DNA of 64,000 nucleotides from Leptotrichia hongkongensis (GTDB lineage Bacteria; Fusobacteriota; Fusobacteriia; Fusobacteriales; Leptotrichiaceae): positions 1,550,001 through 1,614,000 of the forward strand of contig NZ_AP019846.1 in the NCBI RefSeq assembly GCF_007990635.1, in the 5' to 3' direction. A program made the translations under genes and the position numbers. The notes under the pieces were generated by a model, which saw only the letters and a program-made list of their open reading frames with translations, had not been told where the DNA came from and searched no databases. This document shows positions 18,234 to 23,939 of the stretch, piece after piece; positions within the stretch are counted from its first letter, which is position 1, and each line of letters begins with the position of its first letter.

Positions 18234-20702
18234 TTACTTCATCTTTTTTAAAATTTCACTTTTACTTTCAACTACCTTGTTTCTTGGCAAAGCCGATAAA
18301 AATTTTTTTCCATACATTTTTTTTATTATTCTGTTATCTAGAATTATAATATTTCCGCTATCAGTCTTGCTTCTAATAAGCCGCCCAACTCCCTGCTTAA
18401 ACTTAATTACAGCTTGCGGAACTTGATAGTCATTAAACGGGTTCTGTCCATTTTTTCTAATGTTTTCAATAATCGCTTCAGTTACAGGGTCATTTGGCAC
18501 TTTAAACGGCAGTTTTGTGATGATTACTGATTGCAGCTGTTCCCCCTGTACATCTACACCTTCCCAAAAACTGTCTGTCCCAAATAATATTGGATTTTTA
18601 GAATTTTTAAATATTTCTATCATTTCGTGCCTTGGAAAATCATTTTGCTTTATAAGCGTATATTCCTTTTCTGAGAAACGTGATTTTAACTGGTTGTATA
18701 AAAAGTTCAACGCACTATATGAAGTAAATAATAAAAAACAATGCCCTTTCGTATTTTTTATTACACCTTCAATAAATTCTTCCAAATCCCTTAAAAATTC
18801 GATATTTGTTGGATCAAGTGCATCTTCTGGAATATAAACTTTCATTTGTTTTTCGTAATCAAATGGCGATTTTACAATCCTTTCGTCTATTTTCCTACGA
18901 TTTTCCTTCATAAGCCCAATACTTTTTTTATAATAATCAAATTTATTGTCAACAGCAAGTGTCGCTGAAGTAAAAACCATCCTATCCATTTTTGTAAACA
19001 AATTATCGTTCAGTTCATCCGAAATATCGAAAGGAGTAGCATATAATTTTACATTTGGACGAGTTGTAGTAACATTAGCCCAGTAAACATACCCTTCTTC
19101 TTTCCCTTCCAGAATAAACTCAAATTTCTTATAATATTGCTTCAATCTTTCATAATATCTTGAAAATTCAAATAAAAACCCCTCTTTATCTTCCAAATTA
19201 TAATTGCTCACTGTATTTAAAAACTTATTAATTCTTATAACTAAATTTCCATAACTTTCCTTAAATTGGCTATTAATTTCCATAACTTCACGAAAAGCCA
19301 TATTACTTTGCATTTTCTGCTTATCAATTTTTATTTTGATTTCCCTGTTGTTATTATTTTCTGAAAAAAGATATATCAATTTATCAAAAATATCTATTCC
19401 CTTATCGTAAAATATATTCAATTCTGCAATAGCATCTTCCTTCAATTCATCGACTTTCTCATATTCTTCACTTGAAAGACTTTCGTTCAGATAAGTCATT
19501 AATCTTACAATAGCCCCACCATTGCTGGAATTTACGACACGTCTATTATAAATATTCCCCATAAGCCGTCCAAATGATATTTTTGACGTTTCAAAAGTAA
19601 AATAATTTCGAGCTGTATCTTCTATATTGTGAGCCTCATCAAAAACAACAATATCATAATTTGGCAAAATTGAATAATTTGTATAAAACCCTGTCTGATT
19701 TCTAATTGCCAAATCAGCAAAAAACATATGATGATTGACAATAAGAAGTGTAGCATCTGCAACATTTTTTCTAGCTTTAAAAAAATGGCATTTTGAATAA
19801 TGCGGACATTTTACGCCTTTGCACATATCCACTTCACTGTTCACTTTTTCCCATATACTATTTGAAATCTCATATTTCAGTTCATTCCTGTCACCTGTCC
19901 TTGTAACATTTTTATCCCAGTCAATAAGATTTCTTATAATATTTTTTTCAGTTCTTTCCTCTTCCGTATCTGTTTCTTTCTCTGTAACATCTATATTATA
20001 AAGTTTCCTCTTACAAAGATAATTCCCACGCCCTTTCACAATCTGATAATTAAAATCTTCATTAATAATTTTTTTTAAAAGCGGAATGTCCTTATTAACA
20101 AGCTGTTCCTGCAAATTGATGGTATTTGTGGAAACAATTACCTTTAGATTATTTTCAATAGCGTAAAGCAATGTTGGCAATAAATAGGCAATCGTCTTTC
20201 CAGTACCAGTACCAGCCTCTACTATAAGTTTCTTATTCTCATTCATGCTATTTTCAATAAACTTAGCCATTTCATACTGCTCACGCCGTACCTCAAATTT
20301 TCCAAAATTCTTATGAATAGCCCCATTTTCACCAAAATATTCATCCACATCTATCTTTATAAATTCTTTTAAAGGCACAATCACATAAATATCATCCACA
20401 GCATTATTCACAATGTATGAAGCTCCCCCAACTTCTCCATACATGCTGGAAATACTCACATCTTCATCAGAAGGAATTAGCACTCCAAACGGATGATTAT
20501 GTATTATAACTTCATTTTTTCTCATCATATTTAATAATGCAGCAACAGAACTGGAATTTCCTCTCGCAATAACTTCGACTTCAGAAACTATCCCCTCTCC
20601 ATTAGGAATCCCACGAAAAAATACTTCATTTCCACCAGATTCACTAATTTCCAGACGCATTTTTTCTATCGTTTTCGCATTAATAAATTCAGCAACTTTC
20701 AT
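18234..20702 (-). CDS. DinG-like helicase with N-terminal JAMM domain
   Basis: 822 residues from the ATG at 20702, which follows AGGAGGA; an upstream in-frame start lacks a site. Residues 1-115 form a RadC/JAMM-like domain with Glu26 (GGNEVFF) and the exact metal pattern H68-x-H70-x7-S78-x2-D81 in HNHPFGVLIPSDEDV. From about 145 comes an XPD/DinG superfamily 2 helicase: Walker A VEAGTGTGKT, four iron-sulfur type cysteines (NYLCKR, CKGVKCPHYSKC), VFDEAHNIED and the C-terminal motif KFKQGVGRLIRS. Firmicutes DinG often carries an exonuclease domain in this place; here a JAMM domain is found. Likely a DNA repair helicase. Confidence 0.85.
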   Translation of the reverse strand: MKVAEFINAKTIEKMRLEISESGGNEVFFRGIPNGEGIVSEVEVIARGNSSSVAALLNMMRKNEVIIHNHPFGVLIPSDEDVSISSMYGEVGGASYIVNNAVDDIYVIVPLKEFIKIDVDEYFGENGAIHKNFGKFEVRREQYEMAKFIENSMNENKKLIVEAGTGTGKTIAYLLPTLLYAIENNLKVIVSTNTINLQEQLVNKDIPLLKKIINEDFNYQIVKGRGNYLCKRKLYNIDVTEKETDTEEERTEKNIIRNLIDWDKNVTRTGDRNELKYEISNSIWEKVNSEVDMCKGVKCPHYSKCHFFKARKNVADATLLIVNHHMFFADLAIRNQTGFYTNYSILPNYDIVVFDEAHNIEDTARNYFTFETSKISFGRLMGNIYNRRVVNSSNGGAIVRLMTYLNESLSSEEYEKVDELKEDAIAELNIFYDKGIDIFDKLIYLFSENNNNREIKIKIDKQKMQSNMAFREVMEINSQFKESYGNLVIRINKFLNTVSNYNLEDKEGFLFEFSRYYERLKQYYKKFEFILEGKEEGYVYWANVTTTRPNVKLYATPFDISDELNDNLFTKMDRMVFTSATLAVDNKFDYYKKSIGLMKENRRKIDERIVKSPFDYEKQMKVYIPEDALDPTNIEFLRDLEEFIEGVIKNTKGHCFLLFTSYSALNFLYNQLKSRFSEKEYTLIKQNDFPRHEMIEIFKNSKNPILFGTDSFWEGVDVQGEQLQSVIITKLPFKVPNDPVTEAIIENIRKNGQNPFNDYQVPQAVIKFKQGVGRLIRSKTDSGNIIILDNRIIKKMYGKKFLSALPRNKVVESKSEILKKMK

Positions 20703-20711
20703 CTTTCCTCC

Positions 20712-20732
20712 TATAGTAAAGATTTTACTATA
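20712..20732 (-). promoter_or_regulatory. palindrome at the helicase promoter
   Basis: Perfect dyad TATAGTAAA-GAT-TTTACTATA lies ten bases before the helicase start. On the minus strand it overlaps a plausible -10 (TAAAAT), with TTGAAA 17 bases further upstream. It could be an operator or an mRNA hairpin. No matching palindrome was seen elsewhere in the window. Confidence 0.4.
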
Positions 20733-20771
20733 TAATAGGCTTTTTTTCAACTTTTCTTTTTAAAAATATAG

Positions 20772-20856: not shown

Positions 20857-21480
20857 TTATTCTTCAATTGAACCATGCCCAGAGTTTTGAAGGCTACAGC
20901 TTTTATCTTTTCCATTTTCTGTGTAAACAGCTTCGTTTCCTTTCATATGGATAGAGATATTTCCATTTGAATATCTTTCTCCACTACCAGATGATGCTGA
21001 ATTTAAAGTGTGAATTCCACCATAACCATCAGCTACTTTTACTTTGTCTGTTGAAACATTTTCAACTGTTATATCTTGATAACCGTCACAGCTGAATTTT
21101 CTTAGCAAATTGTTACTAGAACTTTGATTGTTGCTAGTTGAACTGTCACTTGCTGTCATAGAACAGCTTTCATCGCTTCCATTTTTTGTGAAGACTGCAT
21201 CATTTCCTTTTATGTGAATTGAAACTCCTCCACCTTTGTACTCTTCTCCACTACCAGATTTTGTTAATTTCAGATTGTAAACTTTTCCATTTGCATCTGT
21301 CAATTTTACTCTGTCTGTTGAAAGATTTTGTACTGTTACTTCTTTGTTGCTGCAACTAAACTTTCTTGATAAATTTGATGCTTTTTTTGAAGATTTTGCT
21401 GCTGCGGCTGAAAAACCAATAGAACTAATAGCTAAAACTCCAACTAAAGCTGTTAAAATCATTTTTTTTGTTGATTTCAT
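20857..21480 (-). CDS. exported protein with two MliC-type lysozyme-inhibitor domains
   Basis: 207 residues with a signal peptide (about 1-28, ending SAAAAKS) and two copies of a domain of about 70 residues. Copy one runs from FSCSNKEVTVQNLS to SIHIKGNDAVFTKNG and Cys; copy two from FSCDGYQDITVENVS to SIHMKGNEAVYTENG and Cys. The pattern FSC...VTV...L...YxxG-G-NISIHxKGxEAxxxxNG...C matches MliC/PliC inhibitors of C-type lysozyme, with the pair of cysteines at the domain ends. A serine/asparagine linker joins the copies. It would protect the wall against host lysozyme, for example in saliva. Confidence 0.72.
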   Translation of the reverse strand: MKSTKKMILTALVGVLAISSIGFSAAAAKSSKKASNLSRKFSCSNKEVTVQNLSTDRVKLTDANGKVYNLKLTKSGSGEEYKGGGVSIHIKGNDAVFTKNGSDESCSMTASDSSTSNNQSSSNNLLRKFSCDGYQDITVENVSTDKVKVADGYGGIHTLNSASSGSGERYSNGNISIHMKGNEAVYTENGKDKSCSLQNSGHGSIEE

Positions 21481-22529: not shown

Positions 22530-23939
22530 CTAAAAATAATTAGTAATAATCTTAGATTTTATTCCTCTCTTTCTTAAATAAACAAAAAAATCCCTCTCAA
22601 TATCATAATTTGCAGTCAAATTTCCAAAATTTACATAAACCTTATTAAAGTCACTTACAACTCCCATCTTGATTTTGCACCTTTTGCTTGGTGGCGGTAA
22701 AAATCGGAATCCCTTTAGATACTTTTCATACTTTTTATCAACTTTAAAAATTCCTAAATTTGAAAATCCTGTTGTATAGCCCCGTTCTCCGTAATAATCA
22801 AATATAAATGGGAAAAACATACGTTTTATCAAATATGGAACAGACTTTATTATTATATTTTGTATTGGATTCATTGCCTTGTATATACTTTTGTAAAATT
22901 CTTTTTTTGTAATTTTTAAGGCAAAATAGTTATCCAGATAAGTTATGATTTCAGAGAGGGAATATGCACCAAGACTTGCATCCATGCTAGGAGTTATGTT
23001 TATAAAAAAATTTCTGTATGTAGTTTCTTCAAAAATTTTTCGCAAATCAACCGGCACTCCTATCACAATTGGATTTTTGGCTTGTGAATACCTATCCAGC
23101 AAAATTTTGAAATATACTGAAAGAAGATATTTCCCAATAGTAGTCCCATATTTTTTACTCTCCACCTTCAGGCTTTCCACATCAATTTCTCCAGTTGTAA
23201 TATGGTACTGCCCCTTTTCCAGTATTTTCATTGGCAAGTGAAATGCTGACTTTATAGTAGTTTCCTTACTCACTTTCCTCATATACTTTTCATAAAGATC
23301 GACATACTCATTTTTTTGAGAATTTTTCAATCCACTGTCATTTCCCAGCAGTTCTCTTGTTTTTTCAAAAAAGTTTTTTTCAGATTTTTTATTTTCAAAA
23401 TCTTTTTCATTTTTATTTATCTTTTTCCCAAAATTAATTATTTTATTTATTTTTTCAATTTCTATTTCCTTCTTTTTTTCAGTCTTGTAAATTAAATTAT
23501 TCTTTTTATCTTTTTCAAAATTTTCCAAAAAATACCTTTTCTCCAAATATTCTTCAATCAAATCCTGAAAAAATAATGCCGCACCTTTTCCATCGGTCAA
23601 AAAATGTGCTATTTCTATCGACAATTTATTATTAAAATAAATGATCCTAAGCGGATTATCCTTCTGTATATCCGTACAAGGATAAGTTTTCTCCTCTTCA
23701 ATTATAAAATGAGTCTTTTTCTGCTGCAAATAATTCCAAAAAATTCCCTTTTTCAGTTCCGAATTATAGAATGGATATTTCTTCTCAAGCGAAATTACAA
23801 CATTTTGCAATATTTCCAAGTCAATATTTTTAGAAAACAATACTGAAAGCCGAAAACAGGTTGTTCTTCCTTCGCTAATTATTGAAGAATATGTTTTTGC
23901 AAAAGCGTCAAGCTCATACCATATTTTTTCATTTTTCAC
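22530..23939 (-). CDS. condensation-type acyltransferase (alcohol acetyltransferase-like)
   Basis: 469 residues of the CoA-dependent acyltransferase fold. The HHxxxDG-type active motif appears as IAHFLTDGKGAALF near residue 110, with the later structural stretch IVIGVPVDLRK. Residues about 150-210 are an inserted lysine/glutamate-rich low-complexity loop. The start is a GTG after AGAGGA. Relatives are annotated as alcohol acetyltransferases or acyltransferases of lipids; the substrate is not visible. It sits with the zinc-ribbon membrane protein and a patatin, so a lipid role is plausible. Confidence 0.68.
   Translation of the reverse strand: MKNEKIWYELDAFAKTYSSIISEGRTTCFRLSVLFSKNIDLEILQNVVISLEKKYPFYNSELKKGIFWNYLQQKKTHFIIEEEKTYPCTDIQKDNPLRIIYFNNKLSIEIAHFLTDGKGAALFFQDLIEEYLEKRYFLENFEKDKKNNLIYKTEKKKEIEIEKINKIINFGKKINKNEKDFENKKSEKNFFEKTRELLGNDSGLKNSQKNEYVDLYEKYMRKVSKETTIKSAFHLPMKILEKGQYHITTGEIDVESLKVESKKYGTTIGKYLLSVYFKILLDRYSQAKNPIVIGVPVDLRKIFEETTYRNFFINITPSMDASLGAYSLSEIITYLDNYFALKITKKEFYKSIYKAMNPIQNIIIKSVPYLIKRMFFPFIFDYYGERGYTTGFSNLGIFKVDKKYEKYLKGFRFLPPPSKRCKIKMGVVSDFNKVYVNFGNLTANYDIERDFFVYLRKRGIKSKIITNYF

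Follow-up and report, generated by a model that had tools for sequence, protein, structure and literature searches.

Judging by its sequence, the protein encoded at positions 20,857–21,480 of the window (the whole 64,000-nucleotide stretch of Leptotrichia hongkongensis DNA that was analysed) belongs to the MliC/PliC family (PF09864, COG3895), in which it represents a PliC-like tandem form. It is probably a soluble, bivalent inhibitor of c-type lysozyme. The domain itself is known; its doubled, genus-wide form appears not to have been studied before. The gene and its product comprise the following parts:

20857..21480, minus strand: tandem MliC/PliC-domain protein, 207 aa from ATG, stop codon included (open reading frame; Pfam MliC)
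21397..21480, minus strand: predicted signal peptide, approximately residues 1–28, type I style (read by eye)
21154..21366, minus strand: MliC domain 1 (D1), residues 39–109, with Cys43, Cys106, Ser77 and Lys91 (Pfam; eight strands)
21103..21153, minus strand: Ser/Asn-rich linker, residues 110–126 (low pLDDT; higher dN/dS than the domains)
20887..21102, minus strand: MliC domain 2 (D2), residues 127–198, with Cys131, Cys195, Ser166 and Lys180 (Pfam; eight strands)

The whole protein scores 63.4 bits against Pfam MliC (PF09864) over two stretches. Each half taken alone also exceeds the curated cut-off of 22 bits, with 33.3 bits for the D1 half and 33.9 bits for the D2 half, which bears out the sequence-only reading of two MliC-like domains in one protein; the paired cysteines that it had noted are residues 43 and 106 in D1, and 131 and 195 in D2. 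The window protein has SIHIKGNDAVFTKNG in D1 and SIHMKGNEAVYTENG in D2. The two domains are 54% identical, and their Smith–Waterman score is 216 against a maximum of 59 among 5000 shuffles, which rules out a chance repeat. With D1, D2 and E. coli MliC among its ten rows, a sequence profile matched E. coli MliC (2f09) at 2.5e-20, P. aeruginosa MliC (3f6z) at 8.9e-10 and Brucella PliC (4mir) at 1.5e-4 in the PDB; only the last two are independent matches, since E. coli MliC sits in the profile. A single-sequence PDB search with the window protein found no MliC, and the NCBIfam C-type lysozyme inhibitor equivalog PRK11372 gave 25.9 bits, below its cut-off of 168. Weak Pfam matches (Stap_Strp_tox_C at 18 bits against a cut-off of 27, AlgF and others) lie below their cut-offs and were taken as chance. 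The N-terminus, as read by eye, is basic–hydrophobic and signal-like, in agreement with the export suggested earlier; the first cysteine is residue 43, and there is no lipobox Cys. For this last reason, the protein is filed as PliC-like and not as MliC sensu stricto.

An AlphaFold model was built from an alignment (A1) of 21 tandem proteins and has a mean pLDDT of 75.8 and a pTM of 0.60; confidence is low at residues 1–35, which include the signal peptide, and at residues 113–121 of the linker (pLDDT <50). Each domain is predicted to have eight strands (residues 38–112 for D1 and 124–203 for D2). In VIA-align comparisons, D1 matched PliC 3oe3 (Z 10.1, rmsd 2.0 over 73), and D2 matched MliC 3f6z (Z 10.9, rmsd 3.8 over 78) and ACP 5my7 (Z 8.8, rmsd 2.0 over 75); PliC 4mir (Z 11.0, rmsd 4.4, 80 aligned) and MliC 2f09 (Z 9.8, rmsd 2.5, 79 aligned) were matched as well. 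Thus, the mismatch to solved MliC/PliC structures that would have spoken against the family was not seen in the model, and the inhibitory loop is present, with its Ser and Lys kept in both domains. The predicted fold backs the family assignment but cannot prove it, because the unrelated barrel 1ei5 also reaches Z 9.8. The top 50 Foldseek matches include no MliC or PliC; they are DNA clamps (TM 0.12–0.16, rmsd about 15) and were dismissed as a length artefact.

The motifs of the family are SxSGAxY and YxxxTKG, and P. aeruginosa MliC uses S89 and K103, according to PMC6033465; the same source reports that the S83A K103A double mutant of SliC lost inhibition. To judge from the published mutagenic primers (PMC6033465), SliC S83 and K103 would be the Ser and the Lys that each precede a Gly. 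Their equivalents in the window protein are S77 and K91 in D1, and S166 and K180 in D2; in each domain of the model, the Ser sits in the strand 4–5 loop and the Lys at the end of strand 6. Both residues are invariant in D1 and D2 of all 14 orthologues, as are both cysteines of each domain, which would form the disulphide bonds C43–C106 and C131–C195 between the first and the last strand. The first motif reads SGSGEEY in D1 and SGSGERY in D2, with Glu in place of the Ala of SxSGAxY. The Lys–Gly core of the second motif is found in both domains (K91, K180), while the preceding letters, SIHI and SIHM, deviate; subgroup 1 likewise deviates before Lys–Gly (FWSKG). Among all 81 collected domains, the Ser is kept in 78 and the Lys in 63. 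The column holds Gly in 14 of the 18 domains without that Lys, and a single-domain subfamily whose Lys precedes this column by one position accounts for most of them. In genomes G073 and G075, D2 no longer has the Gly that follows the Lys. The window protein apparently has two complete inhibitory sites.

PliC of Salmonella (3oe3) and Brucella (4mir) shares with the window protein the eight-stranded barrel, the disulphide cysteines, the Ser loop with the Lys, and a signal peptide free of a lipobox, but it has one domain in place of two and a linker. MliC of E. coli (YdhA, 2f09) and P. aeruginosa (3f6z) shares PF09864, the motifs and the predicted fold; these proteins are described in PMC2267010 as single-domain lipoproteins, unlike the two-domain window protein that has no lipobox. 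SliC and ACP of Neisseria have the fold predicted here, and both are single-domain proteins. SliC relies on the Ser and Lys that are also present in the window domains (PMC6033465), and its residues after the Ser, as deduced from the published primers, resemble those of D2, but it is a lipoprotein of the cell surface. The MliC/PliC motifs are missing from ACP, according to PMC5507604.

The family was surveyed in 98 Fusobacteriota genomes at an MliC threshold of E 0.001; it was found in 27 and fell below the threshold in 71. The collection amounts to 81 domains in 59 ORFs, including the window protein and L034, which is the same sequence as G072. The earlier statement that known MliC/PliC proteins have one domain holds for the characterised proteins as the papers present them, but not for the Fusobacteriota, where 21 tandem proteins (duplicate L034 excluded) occur in 19 of the 27 MliC-bearing genomes. 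All 13 Leptotrichia genomes searched carry an orthologue of the window gene, as does a genome of another genus of the same family (G066); the orthologue of Leptotrichia sp. oral taxon 879 is 89% identical. The orthologue in G075 (L055) is frameshifted into two ORFs near the linker, being either a pseudogene or a sequencing error.

A tree of the domains was built from 76 different rows and 74 columns, and with so few columns for that number of rows, many of its forks are unresolved. All D1 and D2 domains of window-type proteins nevertheless form one clade (27 rows, 97/95), which splits into D1 (13 rows, 99/97) and D2 (14 rows, weaker at 80/88). This single split points to one duplication that took place before the genera parted and predates the diversification of Leptotrichia; the tandem is, on this tree, old and genus-wide, and a recent strain-specific duplication is ruled out, though the D2 clade is the weaker one. 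Across 78 pairs of the 13 intact orthologues, dN/dS averages 0.21 in D1 and 0.20 in D2, so both domains are under purifying selection; the signal peptide reaches 0.50 and the linker 0.44 (37 of the 78 pairs usable). As the tree places them, doubled MliC proteins arose separately elsewhere in Fusobacteriota too: tandems of other descent are L048/L054/L071, the group L083/L084/L085, L072, and L088, both halves of which cluster with the lone MliC domain of G016. L048, L054 and L071 constitute a second tandem family (in G073, G075 and G066), in which the second domain has no disulphide cysteines.

On the sequence features taken together, defence against c-type lysozyme is the most likely function. 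The protein would be exported by the Sec route as a soluble molecule in which a flexible linker connects two MliC-fold barrels. From each barrel, the Ser loop (Ser77, Ser166) and the Lys (Lys91, Lys180) would enter the active-site cleft of a lysozyme; with two such barrels, one molecule could hold two lysozymes, and the cell wall would thereby be shielded. Leptotrichia inhabits the mouth, and lysozyme is present in saliva; the salivary enzyme of the host, suggested earlier, may be the target, and two enzymes may be bound at once. Counting against an inhibitor is the slightly basic character of the whole mature protein (pI 8.3), lysozyme itself being basic.

A further proposal, conceivable though doubtful, is that the heads are tuned to different muramidases or clamp two lysozymes for avidity, and that the doubling is a repeated adaptation in mucosal Fusobacteriota. 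In the form in which one domain is specialised for host c-type lysozyme and the other for a different muramidase (another isoform from the host, or an enzyme from bacteria or phages), we consider it unlikely. D1 and D2 do fall into separate clades with 54% identity in the window protein, their pI values differ (9.0 and 6.1), and at 17 aligned positions they have no residue in common among the 14 orthologues. These positions include an x of SxSGxxY by the inhibitory loop (E/L80 in D1, K/R169 in D2) and one close by (K/R74 in D1, A/S/T/V163 in D2). However, the inhibitory Ser and Lys are identical in both domains of all 14 orthologues, and plain drift after duplication would give a similar picture; 6 of the 17 positions lie in residues 71–85 against about 3.5 expected by proportion, a hint but no clear excess.

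The neighbours of the gene in the window encode a diacylglycerol kinase/PAP2 protein, YbeY, a 7TM-HD protein, a DinG-like helicase, DUF6320, a patatin and a ferritin-like protein; the neighbour at 22530–23939 has no Pfam match. In a crude comparison of 14 orthologous loci (ATG-only ORFs of at least 80 aa), no neighbour was common to all, and a conserved operon partner was rejected; a DinG-like helicase is nearby in seven, a divergent membrane gene upstream in six and a zinc-ribbon gene in four. The tandem gene probably stands alone. A promoter scan was at chance level (13 found, 11.9 expected), and no terminator was found. A mobile origin was rejected, as a tblastn search of plasmids and phages with the protein (P0001) gave nothing at E 0.1. 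The DinG-like helicase of the window (18234–20750, minus strand) has no Pfam match in its N-terminal 130 residues; an HNHP...S..D stretch there resembles a JAMM/RadC motif.

Two further MliC paralogues in this genome have a single domain (L035 and L036, at G000:C1:1638662-1638832 and 1946309-1946503) and are strongly basic, with a pI of about 10 for the mature part as cut by us. Three LprI-domain matches (L091–L093) lie within about 4 kb outside the window (G000:C1:811892-815661); this domain has been linked to lysozyme resistance (PMC7933661). No Ivy reached the threshold in this genome.

The surroundings also bear on whether the protein regulates the cell's own lytic transglycosylases and has no part in host defence. 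Such a role was raised for E. coli mliC, which adjoins anmK (PMC2267010), an adjacency also seen in the present analysis, and genus-wide conservation would be compatible with housekeeping. It is nonetheless quite improbable here: the 14 orthologous loci share no neighbouring peptidoglycan gene, MliC is below the threshold in 71 of the 98 Fusobacteriota genomes, and the Ser and Lys that contact lysozyme are retained. Dental plaque is crowded, which counts for a protein that confers immunity to peptidoglycan-hydrolase effectors released by rivals among the bacteria, as does the precedent of an X-T4SS immunity protein with a PliI-like topology (PMC6536674). This is very improbable, since the precedent concerns PliI and not MliC topology, no effector-like partner adjoins the gene, and the neighbours vary among loci.

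SliC gave an advantage in mice that was gone in mice lacking lysozyme (PMC6033465). Lysozyme inhibitors are colonisation factors in Neisseria; in the open-licence literature, none was found described for Leptotrichia, nor was any account found of MliC in this genus or of MliC proteins in tandem form. A doubled inhibitor with the key residues in both halves would offer a direct test of whether the joining of inhibitor domains brings bacteria avidity or a broader range of targets.
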